From an uncultured Rhodospirillaceae bacterium (GTDB lineage Bacteria > Pseudomonadota > Alphaproteobacteria > Rhodospirillales > Magnetospirillaceae): a stretch of 38,106 nt of DNA. The stretch lies in NCBI GenBank assembly GCA_903899885.1, contig CAIULK010000214.1:1-38106 (forward strand). The letters are read 5' to 3'. Shown in pieces: positions 1,818-12,375 of this stretch (position 1 is its first letter; each line of letters begins with the position of its first letter). The notes below the pieces were generated by a model that was not told the origin of the DNA, did no database searches, and saw nothing but the letters and a program-made list of their open reading frames with translations. The translations under genes and the position numbers were made by a program.

Positions 1818-3692
1818 TCACTCCGTCCGCGTCACTTGGCTGCGGTCAATCTTGACGTTGTAGCGAACCGCCAACGCCCCCAGGAACTGGTCGTCGAGAT
1901 CGTTGGCCACGGTTTGCGCCAGTTCGCGCCCGATCTTGGCGGCGATTTCCGGATGAGCCTTGGCGTCGAAGGGTTGAACCCCGGCCAAACGGGCGATGAC
2001 CCAGCCCGCGCCGGATTCGGCCACCGCCACCTGCCCCGCCGTTTTTTCGAACAGCGCGCCGATCGCCGCCGACGGCAGATCCTGCCCCTCGGCCGCCACC
2101 CGCGGGAACGGGCGGCTGGTCTTGACGGTCAGGCCCATCGCGGCGGACGCCGAGGATATCGGCGCCCCGTCCTCGACACTTTTGGCGAGTTTCTCGGCGC
2201 GTTCGCGCGCCGCCGCGTGCCGGCGCTCGGCAATCAGGGCCGCCGCCACGTCGGAACGAACCGCCGCCAACGGACGCGCCTGGGGTGGCGTCACCTTATC
2301 GACCCGCAGCATGAAGAAGCCGTCATTGCCGTTTTCGGTCAACTGGCTTTCGCTGCCGACCTCGGCATGAAAGGCGACGTCGAGGAACGCCTCGGCCTTG
2401 GGCAGATTGTTGGCGGGCCGCCCCTCGCCGTCCTTGCCTTGGGCGTCGAGCGCCGGGAACGTGGCAACCTGAAGATTGAAGCGCTTGCCCGCCTCTTCCA
2501 GCGAGGCGCCGCCGCCCAGCGCATCCTCGACCTTATTGGCCAGGGCGCCCAGCAGATCGCCCGCGCGGTCGCGGCGAATTCCAGCGACGATCCGCTCGTG
2601 CACGTCGGTCAGGGTGGCGGTCTTGCCGGGGATGACGGTGGCCACCTTGGCCAAATGCCAACCCAGCGGCGATTGCACGGGGCCGACCAGCGCGCCCGCA
2701 GCGGCGCCGAACACCGGACCAGCCAATTCCTCGGGCAAATCGTTTTTCTCGATCGAACCAAGATCGAGGACCTGCGCCCCCAGGGCCTTGGCGACGGCGG
2801 CAAAATCCTTGCCGGATTTCAACAGCGCCCGGACCTTGTTGGCCTCGGCCTCGTCGGCCAGCATGATCTGGCTGACTTGGCGGCGTTCCGGCGTGTTGAA
2901 CTCGTCCTGACGCTGGTGCCACGCCTCATCGACCATGTCGTCCGAGATTTGGATGTCGTTCTCGACGTCGGAGGGACGCAGCAGCAGCACGGTCAGCGCC
3001 CGGTATTCCGGCGCCATGAACCGTTGCGCGTTTACCTTGTAATACTGTTCCAGATCGGCCTCGGCGGGGGCGGCCGGAGCGGGAACCGATTTGTCGTCGA
3101 GCTGGGTCCAGTCGGCGGTGCGCCGCTCCATGCGCCGGGCGACGATCGGATCGACCAGCGAGGCCGGAATGCTGACGCCGCCCTCGACCGCTTGGCCGAC
3201 TTGGCCCCGGATCATCGCGACGCGCTGTTCGCGCAAGAAACCTTCCTCGGTCAGACCGGCGCGCGCCAAGGCGCGGCGCAGCCGCTCGCGGTCGAACACC
3301 CCCTTGTCGTCGCGCAAATTGGGATCATTCGCCACCTTGGCCAGGATCAGATCATCCGACGCGGCAAGGCCCAGGTCGCGCCCAGCCTCGGAAACCAGCG
3401 TCTTGTTGACGATCGACTCGATGGCGCGGTCCATCAGGCCCATCTTGCGGGCCTCCTCGGGCGTGAGTTTTCCGCCCAGCATCGGCTGCAAGCGGTCGAT
3501 CTCGCGCCGGAACTGCGCATCGACGTCCGAGGCCGAGAACTGGTTGCCCGCCACCTCAATGGCGGGGCCGGTGCCGAAGGCGCCCCGGCGGATGACGTCG
3601 CCTACCCCCCACGACATGAAGCCGAACGTCAGAAGCGCAAGCAGCAGCTTGACGATCCAGGTCTGAGAGGCCTTGCGGAAAATATCGAGCAT
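1818..3692 (-). CDS. PpiD/SurA-like periplasmic peptidyl-prolyl isomerase
   Basis: A membrane-anchored folding factor of the SurA_N/PpiD family that assists exported proteins in the periplasm. The 624-residue chain starts MLDIFRKASQTW and has one membrane helix at about residues 13-33 (VKLLLALLTFGFMSWGVG), the standard PpiD architecture. A SurA-type N-terminal chaperone region (about 40-190) and a parvulin-like rotamase region (about 235-350, including RRQVSQIMLAD and SPLGWHLAKV) follow, then a second PpiD-like C-terminal half. The frame is open about 30 codons further upstream, but those residues are arginine- and glycine-rich and unlike the family, so ATG 3692 was chosen. It heads the ppiD-trpE operon and is divergent from the sulfur cassette. 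Whether it has true isomerase activity cannot be judged; many PpiD proteins act mainly as chaperones. Confidence 0.9.
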   Translation of the reverse strand: MLDIFRKASQTWIVKLLLALLTFGFMSWGVGDVIRRGAFGTGPAIEVAGNQFSASDVDAQFRREIDRLQPMLGGKLTPEEARKMGLMDRAIESIVNKTLVSEAGRDLGLAASDDLILAKVANDPNLRDDKGVFDRERLRRALARAGLTEEGFLREQRVAMIRGQVGQAVEGGVSIPASLVDPIVARRMERRTADWTQLDDKSVPAPAAPAEADLEQYYKVNAQRFMAPEYRALTVLLLRPSDVENDIQISDDMVDEAWHQRQDEFNTPERRQVSQIMLADEAEANKVRALLKSGKDFAAVAKALGAQVLDLGSIEKNDLPEELAGPVFGAAAGALVGPVQSPLGWHLAKVATVIPGKTATLTDVHERIVAGIRRDRAGDLLGALANKVEDALGGGASLEEAGKRFNLQVATFPALDAQGKDGEGRPANNLPKAEAFLDVAFHAEVGSESQLTENGNDGFFMLRVDKVTPPQARPLAAVRSDVAAALIAERRHAAARERAEKLAKSVEDGAPISSASAAMGLTVKTSRPFPRVAAEGQDLPSAAIGALFEKTAGQVAVAESGAGWVIARLAGVQPFDAKAHPEIAAKIGRELAQTVANDLDDQFLGALAVRYNVKIDRSQVTRTE

Positions 3693-3814
3693 CGCCGGAA
3701 ATACGCCTGAAAAAAACCGTGGTTTCGAGCCCGGCATCATACGGAGGGCCGCCCCCCCCCGCAACCGGGAATCCGCCGTCCTCATGAATTCGAAATAACT
3801 GGATTAGATTCATC

Positions 3815-3920: not shown

Positions 3921-4322
3921 ATGGCTTCCCAGCCCCTGTACATCATCCTGAGCTCCGGCGAGCATGAAAAGGTTCATCTGGCCGCGATGATCGCCTCGGT
4001 CGCGGCCGTTTCGGACCGCAAGGTCGAGGTATTCGTCACGATGAACGCGGTCAACGTGTTCGAGCGCGGCTTGGCCCCCGAGGAACGCTACCACGGCGGC
4101 AACTATCACGACCTTTTCGTCGCCAACAAGGTTCCCGACACGCTCGAGCTGTTCCAGATGGGCAAGGATCTTGGCGAATTGAAGATGTGGGTCTGTTCGA
4201 TGGTCCTCGATCTCAAGCATTGGGAAGTGGAGAAGAACCTGACGGAAGGCCTGTTTGACGGCGCGGCCGGTCTTACGGTATTCTTGTCCGACGCCGAAAA
4301 CGGGCAACTCCTTTCTTTTTAA
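3921..4322 (+). CDS. DsrE-family sulfur-carrier protein (DsrE2-like)
   Basis: A cytoplasmic sulfurtransferase-type protein of the DsrE/DsrF superfamily, which carries persulfide sulfur on a cysteine and exchanges it with TusA. It has 133 residues. The N-terminal strand (PLYIILSSGEHEKVH) and the single cysteine, Cys92 in KMWVCSMVLDL, match the DsrE2-type C-S-M pattern. The ending GLTVFLSDAENGQLLSF is normal for the fold. An AAGGA-type ribosome binding site precedes ATG 3921. It is the first gene of a four-gene cluster with TusA, an SQR-like flavoprotein and DUF1641. DsrE-TusA pairs are known from sulfur-oxidising organisms, so a role in passing sulfane sulfur is inferred. There is no accompanying dsrAB or hdr gene in view. 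Confidence 0.85.
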   Translation: MASQPLYIILSSGEHEKVHLAAMIASVAAVSDRKVEVFVTMNAVNVFERGLAPEERYHGGNYHDLFVANKVPDTLELFQMGKDLGELKMWVCSMVLDLKHWEVEKNLTEGLFDGAAGLTVFLSDAENGQLLSF

Positions 4323-4361
4323 TAAAAAGCGACGCTTTCAAGACACGAAGGAAAAAAGAAC

Positions 4362-4589
4362 ATGGCAACCACCACCATCGACGGTCGCGGCTCGTTCTGC
4401 CCGGGTCCTCTGATGGAACTGATCGCGGCGCTGAAATTGGCGGCGGTCGGTGACGAAATCGAGGTGCTATCCTCGGACAAGGGGTCGGCGAACGATATCC
4501 CGGCTTGGATCAATAAGGTCGGCCACACCCATGTCGGCACGACGGACAAGGGCGGTTACTGGAGCATCCTGGTTAAAAAAGCGAAGTAG
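4362..4589 (+). CDS. TusA-family sulfur-transfer protein
   Basis: A 75-residue protein of the TusA/SirA/YedF family, small cytoplasmic carriers that accept persulfide sulfur on the cysteine of a CPxP motif. The motif is present as Cys13-Pro-Gly-Pro (GRGSFCPGPLMEL), followed by the family pattern ending in ND IPAWINKVGH. A purine-rich site (GAAGGAAAAAAGAA) lies just before the ATG. A short palindrome, AAAGCG-A-CGCTTT (4326-4338), sits in the 39-base gap after the DsrE gene. Its position between DsrE and the SQR-like gene suggests relay of sulfane sulfur rather than the tRNA-thiolation role of E. coli TusA. That function is inferred from context only, so the tusA symbol is not applied. Confidence 0.9.
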   Translation: MATTTIDGRGSFCPGPLMELIAALKLAAVGDEIEVLSSDKGSANDIPAWINKVGHTHVGTTDKGGYWSILVKKAK

Positions 4590-4670
4590 TTGTTGGGGGA
4601 TGCGGCCAAGGCTGCGGTCAGACAGCCGGCGCCGTTTTCGAAGTTCTGAACCACTTAGGGAGGGTTACGA

Positions 4671-5810
4671 ATGTCCAAGACGATTCTTATCGTGGGCGGC
4701 GGTCTTGCCGGCACGATCGTGGCGAACGGCATGTGCCGTCAGCTCAATTCCGAGCTGCGGAACGGGTCGGTCAACATCACGATGTTGGGAACCACCGAAA
4801 CCCATATGTATCAGCCCGGTCTGCTGTACGTGCCGTTCGGCCGTATCCGCGAAGCCGAACTCTATCGTGATCAGCGCCGGGTGTTGGACCGGCGCGTGAA
4901 TTTCTTCGTCGATCCCGCCAAGCATATCGACGTCGAGAAGAACCAAGTCACCACCGAGAAGGGCCGTACCTTCAAGTACGATTACCTGGTGCTGGCCACC
5001 GGTTCGCGCATCATGCCCCAGAACATTCCGGGCATGGCCGAAGCCGGTCACTGGTTCTACGACATCGAAGGTGCCCGCAAGCTGCGGACCGCGCTCAATA
5101 ATTTCGAGGGCGGCAAGATCATCGTCAACGTCAACGCGCCGCACAAGTGCCCGGTCGCCCCGCTCGAAGTCACGTTCATGCTGAACGAGTTCTTCAAGGG
5201 CAAGGGCATGTCGGACAAGGTGGAAATCACCTACACCTACCCGATCGGCCGTCTGCACGCGCTGGAACCGGTTGCCCATTGGTCCAAGCCGGAATTCGAC
5301 AAGCAAGGCATCAAGTACGAGACCTTCTTCAACACCGAATCGGTGAACCCCGAGAAGAAGACCATCCGCTCGATGGAAGGCGTCGAACTGCCGTTCGATC
5401 TGCTGATCACCATTCCGCCCCACATGGGCCAGCAGGTGATCATCGACTCCGATCTCGGCAAGGGCGGCTGGGTGCCGACCAACACCAAGACCCTGCATCG
5501 CGAAGGCTCGACCAACGTCTTCGTCGTCGGCGACACCACCAACATTCCGATTTCGAAGGCCGGTTCGACCGCTCACTTCGAGGCCGACGTGTTGATCGAC
5601 AATCTGGTCTCGCTGGTCACCGAAGGCGCTTGGGCCCGTGAATACGACGGTAAGGTGTTCTGCTTCGTCGAAACCGGTCTGGGAACCGGCACCTATGTGT
5701 GGTTCGACTACAAGACCCCGCCGAATCCCGGCCCGCCGTCGCAGATGATCCACTGGTTCAAGCTGGCTTACAACCGACTGTACTGGCTGTCCGCTCGCGG
5801 CCTGCTGTAG
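4671..5810 (+). CDS. SQR-like FAD-dependent oxidoreductase
   Basis: A 379-residue flavoprotein of the sulfide:quinone oxidoreductase/flavocytochrome c sulfide dehydrogenase superfamily. The N-terminal dinucleotide-binding motif is VGGGLAG (8-14). YLVLATGSR (about 105-113) and VFVVGDTTNIP (about 283-293) are the other FAD-contact motifs. Of the redox cysteines in characterised SQRs, Cys160 (in HKCPVAPLE) and Cys331 (in KVFCFVE) are present. I see no third cysteine equivalent to the residue near 128; the only other cysteine is Cys22. This suggests a two-cysteine member that could oxidise sulfide or a persulfide carrier and reduce quinone. The C-terminal HWFKLAYNRLYWLSARG is amphipathic and may dip into the membrane. 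AGGGAGG precedes the ATG. It is followed 12 bases later by DUF1641, a partner often seen beside such oxidoreductases. Confidence 0.88.
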   Translation: MSKTILIVGGGLAGTIVANGMCRQLNSELRNGSVNITMLGTTETHMYQPGLLYVPFGRIREAELYRDQRRVLDRRVNFFVDPAKHIDVEKNQVTTEKGRTFKYDYLVLATGSRIMPQNIPGMAEAGHWFYDIEGARKLRTALNNFEGGKIIVNVNAPHKCPVAPLEVTFMLNEFFKGKGMSDKVEITYTYPIGRLHALEPVAHWSKPEFDKQGIKYETFFNTESVNPEKKTIRSMEGVELPFDLLITIPPHMGQQVIIDSDLGKGGWVPTNTKTLHREGSTNVFVVGDTTNIPISKAGSTAHFEADVLIDNLVSLVTEGAWAREYDGKVFCFVETGLGTGTYVWFDYKTPPNPGPPSQMIHWFKLAYNRLYWLSARGLL

Positions 5811-5822
5811 GAGGGGCGTCTT

Positions 5823-6362
5823 ATGACCGATATGCCGCAACCTTCGATTAGCGAAGAGCTGGCTCGCCTTGCCCAAGGCGGCAAGGACGCTCTTTGTGAC
5901 AGTATGTTCTCCCGTTTGGCGGACACCGCCGGCAACACGCTGGAAGTGGTCGACAAACTCAACGATCCGGACGTCAAGGAAGCGATCGTCTACCTGCTGG
6001 ATAACCTGGGAACGCTTCACCGCACCGGGGTTCTGACGACGGTGGTCGATCTGCTCTACTTGGTCCACGGTGCCCGCAACGCGGCCACCGATTCGATCGT
6101 CGACCGTGTGTTCGCCTTCATGGAACACATGGCCAACAACGTCGGTACCGAAGATCTGGGCACCTTGGCGCACGAAGCCAAATGCTCGGTCGAGGACGCG
6201 CTGGAACATTGCCAGATTCCGGGGGCCAGTGCTGGCCTGTTCGGAACCCTGCGCATGCTGTCCAAGCCGGAGACGCAGGAAGCCATGCGGTTCATGCTGG
6301 CCTTCGCCTGCTCGCTGCGCAAGCGCGTCGCGGTCGTCGCCAAGACCCGCGCCCCGCTTTAA
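5823..6362 (+). CDS. DUF1641-family protein
   Basis: A 179-residue, mostly helical, soluble-looking protein. The C-terminal LRMLSKPETQEAMRFMLAFACSLRKR fits the short conserved region of DUF1641, and the central helix-rich part (LLDNLGTLHRTGVLTTVVDLL) is also typical. The family has no firmly established activity and recurs next to SQR-like flavoproteins and formate dehydrogenase accessory genes, so a role as partner or membrane adaptor of the preceding enzyme is inferred. Four cysteines (Cys25 and three near 120-165) are scattered without a metal-binding pattern. The ribosome binding site TAGGAGGGG overlaps the stop of the SQR-like gene, which shows tight coupling. It is the last gene of the cassette; a terminator follows. 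Confidence 0.8.
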   Translation: MTDMPQPSISEELARLAQGGKDALCDSMFSRLADTAGNTLEVVDKLNDPDVKEAIVYLLDNLGTLHRTGVLTTVVDLLYLVHGARNAATDSIVDRVFAFMEHMANNVGTEDLGTLAHEAKCSVEDALEHCQIPGASAGLFGTLRMLSKPETQEAMRFMLAFACSLRKRVAVVAKTRAPL

Positions 6363-6394: not shown

Positions 6395-6423
6395 GGGGCG
6401 GGCTGTTTCCAGCCCGCCCCTTT
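6395..6423 (+). terminator. Rho-independent terminator of the sulfur cassette
   Basis: A perfect 10-bp stem, GGGGCGGGCT / AGCCCGCCCC, with a six-base loop (GTTTCC), is followed by TTTCC. It lies 33 bases after the DUF1641 stop and before tpiA, so the cassette and tpiA are probably separate transcription units. Confidence 0.8.
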
Positions 6424-6452: not shown

Positions 6453-7208
6453 ATGTCGAATAGAAGGCCGCTAATCGCCGGAAACTGGAAAATGAACGGA
6501 ACCGTCCATGAGGGTGCCCGGCTCGCCGCCGCGATCAAAGCCGGGATTTCGGCGGATCCGGGGTGCGACGTGGTGATCTGCCCGCCCTTCACCTTGATTT
6601 CCACGGTGGTTGGCGCCGTCGCCGGGTCGCTTGTCGCGGTCGGCGGCCAGGATTGCCACGCCAAGGTTTCGGGGGCCCATACCGGCGACATTTCCGCTTC
6701 GATGCTGGCGGATCTGGGCTGCCGCGCCGTCATTGTCGGCCATTCGGAACGCCGCGCCGATCACGGCGACACCAACGACAGCGTGCGCGCCAAGGCCGAG
6801 GCGGCCCACGCCGCCGGTTTGATCGCCATTGTCTGCGTCGGCGAAACCCTGGCCGAGCGCGACGCGGGCCAAACGATGGAGGTCAACTGCACTCAAATCG
6901 CCGGGTCGCTGCCCGCCACCGCCACCCCGGCCAACACGGTGATCGCCTATGAACCCGTCTGGGCGATCGGCACCGGCCGGGTCGCCACCCCGGAACAAGC
7001 GCAAGAGGTTCACGCCGGAATTCGCGCCGAACTGGCCGCCCGGCTGGGCTCCGGCCCCGCCTCCCAGATGCGGATTCTCTACGGCGGCTCGATGAAGCCC
7101 GACAATGCCAAGGCGCTGTTGGCGCTGGCCGATGTCGATGGCGGCCTGATCGGCGGCGCAGCCCTGAAGGCGGCCGATTTCCTGGCCATCATCGGCGCCG
7201 CGCGGTGA
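6453..7208 (+). CDS. tpiA: Triose-phosphate isomerase
   Basis: Interconverts dihydroxyacetone phosphate and glyceraldehyde 3-phosphate in glycolysis and gluconeogenesis, as a cytoplasmic TIM-barrel dimer. It has 251 residues, normal for the family. Substrate and catalytic lysine are in AGNWKMNG (residues 9-16), the catalytic histidine in IVGHSERR (about 95), the catalytic glutamate in AYEPVWAIGTG (about 168), and the phosphate loop in LYGGSMKP (about 210). All active-site residues appear present. The stop overlaps the moeA start by four bases (GTGA). The upstream neighbour in many alphaproteobacteria is a divergent ppiD-trpE unit; here the sulfur cassette lies between them. Confidence 0.96.
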   Translation: MSNRRPLIAGNWKMNGTVHEGARLAAAIKAGISADPGCDVVICPPFTLISTVVGAVAGSLVAVGGQDCHAKVSGAHTGDISASMLADLGCRAVIVGHSERRADHGDTNDSVRAKAEAAHAAGLIAIVCVGETLAERDAGQTMEVNCTQIAGSLPATATPANTVIAYEPVWAIGTGRVATPEQAQEVHAGIRAELAARLGSGPASQMRILYGGSMKPDNAKALLALADVDGGLIGGAALKAADFLAIIGAAR

Positions 7209-8374
7209 TCTCGGTCGAAACCGCCTTGGCGCGGGTGTTGGCGGGACTTGCTCCGCTGCCACCCGAAACCGTGGCGTTGCCGCAAACAGCGGGGCGCGTA
7301 CTGGCGGCCGATATCGCCGCCGGGGTCAGTCACCCGCCTTTGCGGGTATCCAGCATGGACGGCTGGGCGGTTCAGGCGGCCGATACCGCCTCGTCCCCGG
7401 TGGTTTTGGCGCAAATCGGCGAATCGGCGGCCGCGCGGCCGTTTGGCGGCAGCGTCGGTCCCGGCCAATGCGTTCGGATTTTCACCGGCGCGGCAATCCC
7501 ATCCGGGGCCGATGCCATCGTCCGCCAGGAAGACGTGGAGCGGGTCGAGGGGGGCGCGCGGATTGGCCAAACCGTTGCCGCCGGTACCTTCGTGCGTCCG
7601 CCGGGCCTGGATTTCGCCACGGGCGACCGACTGCTAACCGCGGGCTGCATTCTCGATTACCGCCGGATCGGTTTGGCCGCCGCGATGAACCGGGCGTGGC
7701 TGCCGGTGCGCCGCCGTCCCCGGGTCGCGGTGCTATCGACCGGCGACGAATTGCGAATGCCGGGCGAGCCTTTGGGCACGGCGCAAATTCCCGGTTCGAA
7801 CGGCCCGGCGCTGGTCGCCTTGGCGCAAGCGCACGGGGCGGAGGCCCTGCATCTGGGCATCGCCGCCGATACGGTCGAATCCCTGGCGGCGATGATCGGC
7901 GGCGGGCATGATCTGCTGGTGATTTCGGGCGGCGCCTCGGTCGGCGATCACGACGTGGTCGGCGACGTGCTGGCCCAAGCCGGGATGACCCGCGATTTCT
8001 GGAAGGTCGCGATGCGCCCGGGCAAGCCCCTGATGTTCGGGCGGTTGGGCACGATGCCGGTGCTGGGATTGCCCGGTAATCCGGTGTCGGCCCTGGTCTC
8101 GGCGGTGCTGTTCCTGGTCCCCATGCTGAAAGCGTTGAGCGGCCTGCCCGCCGCCCCCTTGCCGCGAACCGCGCGGCTGGGCCGCGACCTGCCCGCCAAT
8201 GACGAACGCCAAGATTACCTGCGCGCGGCCCTGGTTGGCGACGTCGCCACCCCCTTCGTCAAACAGGATTCGGCGGTGCTGTCCGGCTTCGCGAGCGCCG
8301 ACGCCTTGGTAATCCGCCCGCCCTTCGCGCCAGCCGCCGAAGCGGGCGATGCGGTCGATGTGATTACGCTGTAG
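7205..8374 (+). CDS. moeA: Molybdopterin molybdenumtransferase
   Basis: MoeA inserts molybdate into adenylated molybdopterin to finish the molybdenum cofactor, in the cytoplasm. It has 389 residues. Features include SSMDGWAV (about 49-56), FTGAAIPSGADAIVRQEDV (about 93-111), the MoaB/Mog-like domain with STGDEL (about 178-183), GSNGPALVAL, ISGGASVGDHD (about 240-250) and LPGNPVSALV (about 286-295). The C-terminal small barrel is complete. It starts with GTG overlapping the tpiA TGA, so translation is coupled; pairing with a glycolytic gene is unusual. The 3' end overlaps the convergent TetR gene by 11 bases. No molybdoenzyme is encoded in the window. Confidence 0.95.
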   Translation: MISVETALARVLAGLAPLPPETVALPQTAGRVLAADIAAGVSHPPLRVSSMDGWAVQAADTASSPVVLAQIGESAAARPFGGSVGPGQCVRIFTGAAIPSGADAIVRQEDVERVEGGARIGQTVAAGTFVRPPGLDFATGDRLLTAGCILDYRRIGLAAAMNRAWLPVRRRPRVAVLSTGDELRMPGEPLGTAQIPGSNGPALVALAQAHGAEALHLGIAADTVESLAAMIGGGHDLLVISGGASVGDHDVVGDVLAQAGMTRDFWKVAMRPGKPLMFGRLGTMPVLGLPGNPVSALVSAVLFLVPMLKALSGLPAAPLPRTARLGRDLPANDERQDYLRAALVGDVATPFVKQDSAVLSGFASADALVIRPPFAPAAEAGDAVDVITL

Positions 8375-8936
8375 CGATCCGCCGGGCGACCAGCCCAACC
8401 GCCAATTGGCGGGCCAGCCGCGCCGCCCCCGGATCACCGCTGACCTGGGCGCTGACGATCGCCCCTTCCTTCAGCAACAGCAGTTCGCGCGCCAGGGCCG
8501 CCGGATCATCGGCGCCCGCCGCCGCCGCGATGCCGGTGAGCCACGAGTGCAACAGCGCCTTGTGCCGGGCGGCGGCGGCGCGAACCGGATCGCCGGGTCG
8601 GCTGAATTCGGCCGTGGCGTTGATGAACAGACAGCCGTGGAAATCGGGGGCCGAAAACCATTCCCCCAGAAGATCGAACATCGCCAGCAGACGATCGGCC
8701 GGTTTTTCGGCGCGGGCTTCCACCCCTTGCGCCAGCCAGTCGCGGAACAACTCGTCGCGGCGGCAGAGCACCGCCAAAATGAGCTCCTCCTTCGACCGGA
8801 AATGTTTGTACAGCGTCATCTTCGACACCCCCGCCTCGGCCAGGATGCGATCGATGCCGGTGTTGTGGAAGCCGTTTTGGTGAAACAGCGCCAACGCGGT
8901 TTGCAGCAACTTTTCGCGGGCCGGGGATTTGGTCAT
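8364..8936 (-). CDS. TetR/AcrR-family transcriptional regulator
   Basis: A 190-residue one-component repressor. The N-terminal DNA-binding domain has the classic helix-turn-helix (IDRILAEAGVSKMTLYKHFRSKEELI, split here at about residues 28-53). The C-terminal ligand-binding domain contains HGCLFINATAEF and resembles the TetR_C group often seen in regulators of electrophile or solvent stress. ATG 8936 (MTKSPAREKLL) was preferred over an ATG six codons upstream because family members begin just before the first helix. It is convergent with moeA and overlaps its end. The ligand is unknown. A palindrome of TetR-operator type lies at 9811-9830 in front of the HPP gene and may be a target. Confidence 0.9.
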   Translation of the reverse strand: MTKSPAREKLLQTALALFHQNGFHNTGIDRILAEAGVSKMTLYKHFRSKEELILAVLCRRDELFRDWLAQGVEARAEKPADRLLAMFDLLGEWFSAPDFHGCLFINATAEFSRPGDPVRAAAARHKALLHSWLTGIAAAAGADDPAALARELLLLKEGAIVSAQVSGDPGAARLARQLAVGLVARRIATA

Positions 8937-9051
8937 GGCGCCTAAAGGGTCCAAGGAGTGGCGGAAGGGCTGTTGGTCGGCCTCTTCTCGAAACCGTTAA
9001 AATAGGTTATCCTGCGATTGATGCCACACGGCAAGCAATGCGAGCCAAGGC

Positions 9052-9321
9052 ATGGGCGCGTCTGCAATTCTCCGGCTTCAAGCCGCTGGGTTCTCGACCG
9101 AGCAAGTCACGGCATTGGCCGAGCTGATTGATGCGCAAGCCGCCAGCAAATCGGATTTGGAAGCGTTCGAGCATCGGCTTGAGATGAAGATTGTCGATGT
9201 GAAGTCGGCCCTGACGGCGGAGATTGCCGGAGTGAAGGTCGATATTCTGCTGCTCAAATGGATGATGGGGTTCATCCTCGCCTTTCAAGTGGCGATCTTC
9301 GCAAAGATGTTCCTGCATTGA
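9052..9321 (+). CDS. Small DUF1640-like coiled-coil membrane protein
   Basis: An 89-residue protein. The N-terminal ILRLQAAGFSTEQVTALAELI matches the opening of DUF1640/CCDC90-type bacterial proteins. It is followed by a charged coiled coil (SDLEAFEHRLEMKIVDVKSAL, residues about 35-54) and one C-terminal membrane helix (WMMGFILAFQVAIFAKMFL). It is therefore probably a tail-anchored inner-membrane protein with a cytoplasmic coiled coil. The family is common and often multicopy in Rhodospirillales; its role is unknown. It is shorter than typical members (about 100-130 residues). The start ATG 9052 has only a weak CAAGG upstream. Confidence 0.75.
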   Translation: MGASAILRLQAAGFSTEQVTALAELIDAQAASKSDLEAFEHRLEMKIVDVKSALTAEIAGVKVDILLLKWMMGFILAFQVAIFAKMFLH

Positions 9322-9789
9322 CCCCCTCGCCCCATGCCCCGCGACGGCGGGCTGCCGCAAGGTAAAGAAAATGCCGGTCTGATTAGCTCTGGCGGACAGC
9401 CCCGCTTCAGCTAATAGCGTAACGTACCCACGAAGTTCCGGAATTCCCCAGAATTCAAAGGTCAATGGAACATGTGGGTTCCCAAATAACACATAAATAA
9501 GACCATACCCCATCCCAGCAATTTTTCCATCGTGGCGGTCTCCGTGATCCAGGACTTCGGTGACGGGGATTTTGTACTTAATTGCGCGGCCTGCACAGCA
9601 ATCAACCAAACGGGCGTTTTTGCGCCTACACTCTGCACGCGTGCATGCCGACCTGCAACTATAGTTTTTTGTTACGGGCATCGCGTTAATTTTTTTTGCA
9701 CCAATTGCACAGGGCGGCGACGCGCATTTTAATCGGATTATCTGCTCATCCGCACCCCAGACCCCATAATCGAAACCACGTGGACCATC
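9322..9789. other. AT-richer intergenic stretch with an unresolved minus-strand frame
   Basis: No recognised gene lies between the coiled-coil protein and the HPP promoter. The stretch is clearly less GC-rich than its surroundings and contains T and A runs around 9480-9720. On the minus strand a frame is open from 9681 down past 9322. Its middle part reads like a real protein (IAGMGYGLIYVLFGNPH, then FEFWGIPELRGYVTLLAEAG), but the part below 9321 is merely antisense to the coiled-coil gene. It could be a short unrecognised gene or a decayed remnant. I could not identify it. Confidence 0.35.
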
Positions 9790-10364: not shown

Positions 10365-10433
10365 CCACGCCATGAAATCGCCCTAATCTCGGGCCTCTAA
10401 TACTTCCCTATCCGCCCAGCCCGGAGGGATGTG

Positions 10434-11351
10434 ATGACCCGACCCAATCGTTTCGTGCTGCGCATGGTCGTCTTCGTGTTGGCCGTGGCCGCCGTCGCGG
10501 GCACGCTGGCGCCGACCTTGATCCATATCTTCCTGGCCAATCCCGGGCTGAACGGCCTGATCGTCGGGATTTTCGTGACCGGGATCGTCATGAATTTCCG
10601 CCAAGTGCTGCTGCTCAACCCCGAAGTCGAATGGATGGAGGGCTGGCGGCGCGGCACGCCGATCCTGTCGGGCGCCCGGTTGCGGTTATTGGCGCCGATG
10701 GCGGGGATGCTGGGCGAACGGTCGGGGCGGATGAATTTGTCGGCGATGGCCTTGCGCTCGTTGCTCGATTCGATCGCCGCCCGGCTGGACGAGGGGCGCG
10801 ATCTGGCGCGCTATTTCGTCGGCCTGCTGATTTTCCTGGGGCTGTTGGGCACATTTTGGGGGCTGGCGCAAACCATCGCCTCGGTCGGCGATGTGATCGG
10901 TTCGCTGACGGTGTCCGGCCCCGACATGGCCGCCGCGTTCGACCGGCTGAAGGTTGGTTTGGCCGCCCCCTTAAGCGGCATGGGCACGGCGTTCTCGACC
11001 TCGCTGTTCGGCTTGTCGGGCTCGTTGATCGTCGGCTTCCTCGATCTTCAGGCCGGTCAGGCGCAAAACGCTTTTTATAACGAGCTGGAAGACTGGCTGG
11101 CCAGCCAAACCCGCCTGAGCGGCGGCGGCGGCGACGGTGAACACCCGGTGCCCGCCTATATCCAATCGCTGCTGGAACAAACCGCCGACAGCCTGGCCGA
11201 ATTGCAGCGCATCCTGGCGCGCGGCGAGGAAAGCCGGATCGCCACCAACGCCAACATCCGCACCCTGATCGACAAGATGTCGATCCTCGACGACCATTTG
11301 CGGACGGAACAGGCCTTGCTGGCCCGCACCATCGCCGCCGTCGAGGAGTAA
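10434..11351 (+). CDS. MotA/TolQ/ExbB-like proton-channel subunit
   Basis: A 305-residue inner-membrane protein. There are two N-terminal helices (about 8-30 and 38-58) and then a MotA/TolQ/ExbB core with two helices: FVGLLIFLGLLGTFWGLAQT (about 127-146) and APLSGMGTAFSTSLFGLSGS (about 180-199). A cytoplasmic helical tail follows. The pattern G-L-L-G-T-F-W-G-L and the later G-M-G-T-A-F-S-T-S are typical of proton-driven stators. ATG 10434 is preferred to the adjacent GTG 10431 because it gives better spacing to GGAGGG. With the following OmpA/MotB-like gene, four bases later, it forms a stator-like pair. No flagellar, Tol-Pal, TonB or Zorya partner genes are adjacent, so the driven process is unknown. 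Confidence 0.85.
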   Translation: MTRPNRFVLRMVVFVLAVAAVAGTLAPTLIHIFLANPGLNGLIVGIFVTGIVMNFRQVLLLNPEVEWMEGWRRGTPILSGARLRLLAPMAGMLGERSGRMNLSAMALRSLLDSIAARLDEGRDLARYFVGLLIFLGLLGTFWGLAQTIASVGDVIGSLTVSGPDMAAAFDRLKVGLAAPLSGMGTAFSTSLFGLSGSLIVGFLDLQAGQAQNAFYNELEDWLASQTRLSGGGGDGEHPVPAYIQSLLEQTADSLAELQRILARGEESRIATNANIRTLIDKMSILDDHLRTEQALLARTIAAVEE

Positions 11352-11355
11352 GGCC

Positions 11356-12375
11356 ATGCTGTCCCGCCGCGCGCGGCGCACCGTCGAGATCTGGCCGGGC
11401 TTCGTCGATGCCCTGTCGGGGCTGTTGATGGTGATGATCTTCGTGTTGATGGTCTTCGTTCTGGCGCAGTTCTTTTTGGGCAACGCGCTGTCGGGCAGCG
11501 AACAAACGGTCAACCGCCTGAGCGCCGAATTGGCCGGTCTGGTCGATCAATTGGCGCTGGAAAAGAAAACCACCGAAGGCCTGCGCACCGATCTGTCCAA
11601 CCTGTCGGCGCAATTGACCGATGCCAGCGCCGAGCGCGAGGGGCTGGAACACGACGTCGCCGCGCTGCTAGCGCTGAAGGCCGAACTGGAAAGCCAGCTC
11701 GCCAATGCCAACCAGCGGGCCGAGAGCGAAAAGCAGGTCAGCCTTCAGGCCAAGGCGGAACTAGCACTGCTGACCCAGCAGTTGGAGGCGGTGAAGTCCG
11801 AACTGTCCCGGGTCGCCGCCGCCTTGGATGTGTCGGAAAAGCAAACGGCCGATCAGAAGGTGCAGATCGGCGACCTCGGCAAGAAATTGAACTTGGCCCT
11901 GCTGGGCAAGGTCGAGGAATTGCAGCGCTATCGTTCCGAATTCTTCGGCAAACTGCGCGCCATTCTGGGCGACCGTCCCGGCATCCGCATAGAGGGCGAC
12001 CGCTTCATCTTTCAATCCGAATTGCTGTTCGACACCGCATCGTCCGAACTGGGCGCCGATGGTTTGCGCCAAGTACGCGCCCTGGCCGGCACGCTGGCCG
12101 AGATCGCCCGCAAGATCCCCCCGTCGATCCCCTGGGTGCTGCGGGTCGATGGCCATACCGACAAACGGCCGATCGCCTCGAACCGATATCCCTCGAACTG
12201 GGAACTCTCGACGGCGCGCGCCATCTCGGTGATCCGGGCGCTGATCGCGGCGGGCATCCCCGCCGACCATCTGGCCGCCGCCGGGTTCGGCGAGTTCCAG
12301 CCCTTGGACAGAAAGGATAGCGACGCCGCCTATGCCCGCAACCGGCGGATCGAAATCCGGCTGGACACGAAGTAA
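11356..12375 (+). CDS. MotB/OmpA-like peptidoglycan-binding stator partner
   Basis: A 339-residue protein with one N-terminal membrane helix (WPGFVDALSGLLMVMIFVLM, about 13-32) whose aspartate (Asp18) fits the proton-carrying residue of MotB/ExbD/TolR-type proteins. A long coiled coil in heptad-rich sequence covers about residues 50-195. A C-terminal OmpA/MotB domain (about 205-339) includes FDTASSEL, VDGHTDKRPI and NWELSTARAISV, with the final NRRIEIRL. The OmpA domain should hold peptidoglycan. It pairs with the MotA-like gene just upstream. The extended coiled coil would let the pair span the periplasm. It converges with the autotransporter gene, with two bases between the stops. Confidence 0.88.
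   Translation: MLSRRARRTVEIWPGFVDALSGLLMVMIFVLMVFVLAQFFLGNALSGSEQTVNRLSAELAGLVDQLALEKKTTEGLRTDLSNLSAQLTDASAEREGLEHDVAALLALKAELESQLANANQRAESEKQVSLQAKAELALLTQQLEAVKSELSRVAAALDVSEKQTADQKVQIGDLGKKLNLALLGKVEELQRYRSEFFGKLRAILGDRPGIRIEGDRFIFQSELLFDTASSELGADGLRQVRALAGTLAEIARKIPPSIPWVLRVDGHTDKRPIASNRYPSNWELSTARAISVIRALIAAGIPADHLAAAGFGEFQPLDRKDSDAAYARNRRIEIRLDTK

Follow-up and report, generated by a model that had tools for sequence, protein, structure and literature searches.

To our knowledge, how sulfane sulfur first reaches the carrier protein TusA on its way to rDsr and sHdr is still an open question in many sulfur oxidisers. In A. vinosum the sulfur relay runs from TusA to DsrEFH, DsrC and rDsrAB (PMC7596348), a TusA-to-DsrEFH/DsrC relay for rDsrAB has been described in vitro for a cable bacterium (PMC13293266), and TusA and DsrE-type transferases have been placed in Hdr-like systems (PMC8551704, PMC11582611). 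In this work, we describe a four-gene cassette at positions 3,921–6,362 of a 38,106-nucleotide contig (hereafter the window) from an uncultured Rhodospirillaceae bacterium (genome G000), which encodes a DsrE-family carrier, TusA, a flavoprotein resembling sulfide:quinone oxidoreductase (SQR) and a DUF1641 protein. By combining profile searches, structure prediction and a survey of gene order and gene content in relatives, we find that the cassette is tied to rDsr and sHdr genes and argue that it is probably a carrier-coupled SQR feeding sulfane sulfur to these pathways.

In M. fumariolicum SolV, the type III SQR gene shares an operon with the genes for TusA and DsrE2 (MFUM_v2_0219-21), and this operon goes up roughly 1.7-fold with sulfide (PMC10205796). 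The cassette described here differs from the type III SQRs of SolV and Caldivirga in ending with a DUF1641 gene and in having a short DsrE, not a DsrE2. Like the TusA–DsrEFH–DsrC relay of rDsr and the (rhd-)tusA-dsrE2 clusters, the cassette joins TusA to DsrE-family carriers, in the same genomes and, in five of them, in the same operon, whereas its relay genes are tied to a putatively quinone-reducing flavoprotein and not to a rhodanese or an importer. Cable bacteria carry type II yeeE-tusA-dsrEFH clusters in which TusA feeds the Dsr route from sulfide, as we propose here, but their type III SQR is a separate protein shown on the periplasmic side, with YeeE as the sulfur importer (PMC13293266). 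No YeeE is found among the cassette genes, and an import cassette was rejected on this ground.

The last gene recalls ForE1 of the B. subtilis formate:menaquinone oxidoreductase and YjlC of the NDH-2 YjlD, where a DUF1641 gene also stands beside a quinone-reducing oxidoreductase; the B. subtilis formate dehydrogenase needs ForE to use menaquinone (PMC8808070), and YjlC goes unmentioned in PMC10090944. The partner in the window is, by contrast, an SQR-like flavoprotein, and the coupling role of its DUF1641 protein is a proposal of ours. Two Ignicoccus proteins numbered consecutively by locus, one of them a DUF1641 protein and the other a flavin disulfide oxidoreductase, were up together in co-culture (PMC3149612). 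In the open-access literature we recognised no description of a TusA–SQR–DUF1641 cassette or of its placement behind dsrN, subscription papers lying mostly outside the search.

A conserved gene order around an SQR-type flavoprotein

We gathered relatives by similarity to the window flavoprotein and built profiles from the same loci, so the counts below describe the relatives of this flavoprotein, not all SQRs. The set holds 72 distinct flavoproteins, with enough flank on both sides in 69 loci (all but L042, L069 and L105, whose flanks are too short). The first-pass annotation had made its reading hinge on the four genes co-occurring more than rarely, and they do: all four are present in 58 of the 69 loci, and TusA–flavoprotein–DUF1641 is intact in 68. 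Where the flank suffices, the gene directly upstream of the flavoprotein is always TusA (71 of 71 loci), and DUF1641 lies downstream of it in 69 of 70, the exception being a Chloroflexota plasmid (L052). On two haloarchaeal plasmids TusA overlaps the flavoprotein by 4 nucleotides, and one of these has an annotated DUF1641 gene behind. Cultivated relatives that carry the cassette include Paramagnetospirillum caucaseum and Magnetovibrio blakemorei. The cassette DsrE is missing from 11 of 71 loci; at the alphaproteobacterial loci L023 and L037 it is missing, yet no dsr genes were matched beside them, so its loss is not solely a matter of dsr linkage.

The flavoprotein and DUF1641 genes of the window share a reading frame, and we folded them with AlphaFold2 as one chain, reading the intervening stop as a residue, from a fusion alignment of 87 rows, which comprised the window's own sequence, each of the 23 read-through relatives and, of those listed, 34 of 47 flavoprotein-only and 29 of 39 DUF1641-only sequences. 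The nearest fold to this fused model is human SQOR (8dhk, E 8.7e-30), with the SQRs of Aquifex and Acidithiobacillus as further matches and NDH-2 behind them. Human SQOR is also the nearest solved sequence to the flavoprotein, with an SQR entry that we take to be from Acidianus (3h8i/3h8l) next, and then flavocytochrome c and further SQRs. Among curated models, NCBIfam NF049943 matches best (SQR_III_seleno; 1.4e-105, 353 bits, under its cut-off of 525); it represents a selenoprotein subtype within type III SQR and was the only type III reference in the comparison. In Pfam, the match is to Pyr_redox_2 (1.1e-14).

Residues C160 and C331, present in 71 of 71 distinct flavoproteins, align with the human SQOR cysteines that we take to be the catalytic pair C201/C379. 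The third SQR cysteine is missing from the flavoprotein, whose only other cysteine is C22 (kept in 55 of 71). The stretch around C160 (GKIIVNVNAPHKCPVAPLE) aligns there with SQOR, the second Rossmann region is SQR-like, and no NADH-type GxGxxE glycine motif was found by eye in the second Rossmann strand. Given the model, solved-sequence and fold matches, the two cysteines and the SQR-like second Rossmann region without an NADH motif, the protein is an SQR-type enzyme, most likely of type III, a likeness that lies in the best model (matched below its cut-off), the SQR fold and the two redox cysteines. The model has one C-terminal helix (358–374), with low confidence from 375 on, and the tail (HWFKLAYNRLYWLSARGLL) is conserved; the type III SQR of Caldivirga maquilingensis differs in that it reportedly has two C-terminal amphipathic helices for membrane binding.

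Two other enzyme classes were considered for the flavoprotein and rejected. Flavocytochrome c sulfide dehydrogenase (FCSD) was discarded on an FCSD_central score of 16.8 bits against a cut-off of 27, the lack of a cytochrome gene among the four and, by reading, of a leader before the first Rossmann strand, and NDH-2 or an NADH-dependent disulfide reductase on the lack of the NADH motif.

Both carriers proposed by the first-pass annotation, with Cys92 in DsrE and Cys13 in the CPGP motif of TusA, are recovered with their cysteines invariant. DsrE matches Pfam DrsE_2 (6.8e-6) and PDB 2qs7 (E 2.5e-5) and keeps C92 in 61 of 61 relatives; TusA matches Pfam TusA (3.8e-20) and PDB 1pav (E 1.5e-21) and keeps C13 in 71 of 71. 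The fourth protein belongs to DUF1641 (PF07849; 2.8e-8, 33.9 bits against a cut-off of 21), and its solved relatives are YjlC (9snk), an ‘NDH-2 membrane coupling protein’ (9pxk) and ForE1 (8rqz, reached only with a profile, E 0.0012); the fold search with the fused model also lists an entry titled as an integrative YjlC–YjlD model. By analogy with these proteins, the DUF1641 protein may be the quinone or membrane partner of the flavoprotein.

Some loci depart from the four-gene form. In three alphaproteobacterial loci with sHdr-like genes (L148:7857-11001, L157:3210-6353 and L032:4526-7673) we observed a six-gene form, dsrE2-tusA-dsrE-tusA-flavoprotein-DUF1641, with two different TusA proteins. 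Two small genes lie downstream of the cassette in G355 (L148:6686-7645) and have counterparts in G300 (L157:6510-7532); one has a DsrE domain, and by reading the products look secreted and are possibly periplasmic sulfur-handling proteins. A distant relative (37% identity; L154 of G490, 7076-9424) is flanked by a small downstream gene and, by reading, an upstream TetR-like regulator, with no TusA seen, and may belong to a different SQR subgroup.

Linkage and co-occurrence with dsr and shdr genes

That the cassette stands without hdr or dsrAB genes, as the first-pass annotation had it, is true of its neighbourhood; the genome has a dsr operon. In G000, dsrA is over its cut-off, dsrB, E, F, H, C and K are recognised by over-cut-off NCBIfam models, and there are a DsrL-like protein and a DsrP match below cut-off. 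The genome also holds soxB (823 bits) and one DUF1641 gene over cut-off; no other SQR was found with the queries used, which could miss flavocytochrome c.

The cassette is tied more tightly to rDsr and sHdr than that annotation saw. In five genomes, the TusA–flavoprotein–DUF1641 trio lies directly behind dsrN. Four of them (G246, G205, G294 and G185) have a one-strand run of dsrA, dsrBEFHCMKL, dsrP, dsrN, tusA, flavoprotein and DUF1641, in which DsrM is our naming by position; in the fifth, G129, the linkage was read only from dsrP on, and dsrA was not found, yet dsrP and dsrN adjoin the cassette. All five lack the cassette DsrE, and in the four read from dsrA the operon has DsrEFH, as if this replaced it. 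Elsewhere, the cassette is found in the vicinity of dsrN or dsrA: roughly 2.6 kb from dsrN in G024, at a distance of roughly 4.5 kb and on the other strand in G004, and roughly 20 kb from dsrA in G252. Two of the dsrN-linked genomes, G185 and G294 (L131 and L130), belong to genera whose other flavoprotein-bearing members mostly have it at the site between ppiD and tpiA, which suggests replacement by transfer.

Linkage to shdr-like genes is seen in L032, where shdrC2-shdrB2-lbpA-YeiH-like-dsrE2-tusA-dsrE-tusA-flavoprotein-DUF1641 run on one strand (dsrA was not sought in that genome), and in G355 (L156), where a block from shdrC1 to an lbpA-like gene lies on the opposite strand, at a distance of 7 to 8 kb and separated from the cassette by a lipoyl ligase; G300 has its sHdrB1 and its cassette on different contigs. 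The names sHdrC1, B1, A, H, C2 and B2, LbpA, LipS and YeiH-like are our assumptions from domain content and gene order. These loci link the cassette genetically to rDsr or sHdr genes; for co-occurrence, a caveat of shared ancestry applies.

In a sample of the order (297 genomes; flavoprotein at E <= 1e-40, dsrA over its model cut-off), the flavoprotein occurs in 56 genomes and dsrA in 105. Of the genomes with the flavoprotein, 52 of 56 have dsrA, compared with 53 of 241 among the others (Fisher p 1e-23); the proportions are 27 of 27 against 8 of 28 within the family (p 8e-9) and 25 of 29 against 45 of 213 in the order minus the family (p 9e-12), all by tests that ignore ancestry. We also looked for sHdrB1 in nine flavoprotein-bearing genomes of the order and phylum samples that have no over-threshold dsrA, and found it in three of them (G046, G300 and G355) and in none of 17 comparison genomes (both at E <= 1e-30). 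Neither over-threshold dsrA nor sHdrB1 was found in G012 (82% complete) or G049 (76% complete, 33% identity). The clearest exception is L152 (G385), a four-gene cassette in a 96% complete genome where dsrA and sHdrB1 were not found.

Insertion between ppiD and tpiA

The cassette had been described as inserted between ppiD and tpiA, and relatives bear this out. Our family sample of 55 genomes has 27 with the flavoprotein and 28 without it; among the 20 of the latter that we examined, tpiA is present in all and ppiD is directly divergent from it in 11, the other nine having no ppiD match within 1.5 kb upstream of tpiA (seven) or a contig end (two). Both genes surround the cassette in 16 of the 27 carriers and one border is seen in 5 more, as read in the short fetched locus, and the remaining carriers are four dsrN-linked genomes, G252 with the cassette elsewhere and one at a contig edge. 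The 21 distinct rows from this site form one clade, with a support of 94 in the SH-like approximate likelihood ratio test (SH-aLRT), in a tree of 71 of the 72 distinct flavoproteins (one partial sequence was left out) that was built with a quick method, carries SH-aLRT support only and has long branches among its outermost rows. Insertion at ppiD–tpiA is thus real, and the pattern fits one insertion with later losses, gain and loss not being separated by these counts.

In the window, coordinates, profile families and flank genes agree on a four-gene cassette between ppiD and tpiA (Table 1), its genes separated by 39, 81 and 12 nucleotides (locus L053). A strong terminator had been reported behind it; the hairpin found there has a strong stem with a weak T tail, and the four terminator-like sites of the region do not exceed the number in shuffled sequences (3.0, standard deviation 1.8). 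A sigma-70 scan returned no convincing promoter upstream of the cassette, the sole sigma-70-like site falling within DsrE. In the flank, trpE is recognised by an NCBIfam model over cut-off, and positions 10,431–12,375 hold a MotA/ExbB-like gene (just under its Pfam cut-off) and then an OmpA-family peptidoglycan-binding gene, an ordinary envelope pair.

Table 1 Features of the cassette and its borders in the window
Feature	Position	Strand	Basis
ppiD-like peptidyl-prolyl isomerase, bordering the insertion site on the left	1818..3785	-	Pfam SurA_N_3, Rotamase_2
DsrE-family sulfur carrier, 133 aa, Cys92	3921..4322	+	Pfam DrsE_2, PDB 2qs7
TusA sulfur carrier, 75 aa, CPGP with Cys13	4362..4589	+	Pfam TusA, PDB 1pav
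Type III-like sulfide:quinone oxidoreductase (most likely), 379 aa, Cys160 and Cys331	4671..5810	+	NCBIfam NF049943, human SQOR match
DUF1641 protein, 179 aa, proposed quinone/membrane-coupling partner	5823..6362	+	Pfam DUF1641, PDB matches
Terminator-like hairpin 3' of the cassette	6395..6420	+	11-pair stem, 10 G-C, tail TTTCCTATGT
tpiA, right border of the insertion site	6453..7208	+	Pfam TIM 1.9e-90
moeA, 3' of tpiA	7205-8374		Pfam

Discussion

We favour the reading that the cassette is a carrier-coupled SQR. The type III-like flavoprotein, working from the cytoplasmic side, would oxidise sulfide with its C160/C331 pair and FAD and reduce quinone, with the DUF1641 protein as its quinone or membrane partner. 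Sulfane sulfur would be handed directly from the active site to Cys13 of TusA and move onward through the cassette DsrE or the DsrEFH (or DsrE2–TusA) of the genome, and the relay would end in cytoplasmic sulfane-sulfur oxidation, by rDsr in the source genome and by sHdr–LbpA in some relatives. A compact system for sulfide or persulfide oxidation and sulfur delivery in which DsrE and TusA exchange sulfane sulfur with the flavoprotein, as first suggested for this DNA, is the best-supported reading, but the first-pass annotation missed the tie to dsr and hdr: the cassette tracks genomes with rDsr or sHdr.

Several observations weigh against this reading. The co-occurrence with dsrA is partly shared ancestry: a TpiA tree of 35 genomes (16 that carry the cassette and have a complete tpiA in the locus read, plus 19 of the 20 lacking it; L103 was left out as partial) leaves three independent pairs on supported branches, in which, over random pairings, dsrA differs in the same way as the flavoprotein in one, in the opposite way in none and not at all in two, a comparison with no power. 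Likewise, the five dsrN-linked copies form one clade of the flavoprotein tree (SH-aLRT 97) and so count as one event. In the phylum sample (flavoprotein and dsrA at E <= 1e-60, G000 set aside), dsrA is found in only 5 of 10 flavoprotein-positive genomes compared with 47 of 387 others (p 0.005), with G445, one of the five, falling below the dsrA model cut-off and G357, G490 and G538 being partial or distant flavoprotein matches; of its five dsrA-negative genomes, G300 and G355 have sHdrB1, and G385 (96% complete), G468 (65% complete) and G490 (37% identity) yielded neither dsrA nor sHdrB1. TusA–flavoprotein pairs also occur on haloarchaeal plasmids (dsr and shdr genes were not sought there). 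The structure prediction that the first-pass annotation had proposed for the SQR-like/DUF1641 pair returned the SQR-like fold, with human SQOR as best match, but no confident interface (pTM 0.66 for the fused chain), so we make no claim of a complex from it, and the DUF1641 protein alone folds poorly (pTM 0.29, 63 rows). Finally, a 2026 paper on cable bacteria presumes a periplasmic orientation for the type III SQR of one of them (PMC13293266), which speaks against direct loading of cytoplasmic TusA.

The flavoprotein could instead act on carrier-bound sulfur and not on free sulfide. It would then serve the relay itself, either by reducing quinone with a persulfide (or thiosulfonate) carried on TusA or DsrE, or as a disulfide-handling enzyme. 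TusA is its most constant neighbour (71 of 71), DsrE3A/TusA of Metallosphaera carry thiosulfonate from tetrathionate (PMC8551704), and sulfane sulfur may enter via Sox, since G000 has soxB; we nevertheless judge this unlikely, as both SQR cysteines are kept, the second domain is of the SQR and not the NADH type, and in SolV an operon joining a type III SQR to TusA and DsrE2 responds to sulfide (PMC10205796). Somewhat less likely again is a detoxification unit, as proposed for the SolV enzyme (PMC10205796), in which the SQR would remove H2S and TusA and DsrE would only dispose of the sulfane sulfur, with no part in energy metabolism. Eight family genomes carry dsrA without the flavoprotein, from which it follows that rDsr does not need it and which counts both for detoxification and against our favoured reading; the linkage of the cassette to shdr-like genes and, behind dsrN, to the tail of the dsr operon, and the presence of dsrA in every flavoprotein-bearing family member, argue the other way. 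A cassette delivering sulfur for biosynthesis (tRNA thiolation or molybdenum cofactor) would suit the known role of TusA in biosynthetic sulfur delivery and the moeA gene behind tpiA, but is highly improbable for genes that are patchy, inserted, missing from relatives keeping ppiD next to tpiA and found with dissimilatory sulfur genes.

Within the carrier-coupled reading, we tentatively raise a more specific picture, in which TusA, the flavoprotein and the DUF1641 protein would form one cytoplasmic-side complex at the membrane edge, with a protein carrier as sulfur acceptor and quinone access through the DUF1641 subunit. In either form, the cassette puts a type III-like SQR together with carrier proteins and a likely quinone-coupling subunit. 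If the more specific picture is true, the natural acceptor of an SQR would be a protein carrier and not sulfite, a thiol or free polysulfide, and sulfide would enter rDsr and sHdr oxidation directly, skipping periplasmic oxidation, sulfur storage and import, a route that may so far have been overlooked. The membrane side on which type III SQRs act has so far only been presumed (PMC13293266), and a conserved TusA–SQR–DUF1641 unit, placed behind dsr in one clade and beside shdr-like genes elsewhere, brings the question within reach of tests on four small proteins. The cassette further points to DUF1641 as a general quinone-coupling partner for several unrelated oxidoreductases. In the more specific picture, it would be a plug-in unit that bacteria move between rDsr and sHdr pathways. 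For Magnetospirillum-like bacteria and haloarchaea, it offers a candidate marker by which direct use of sulfide might be read from genomes.

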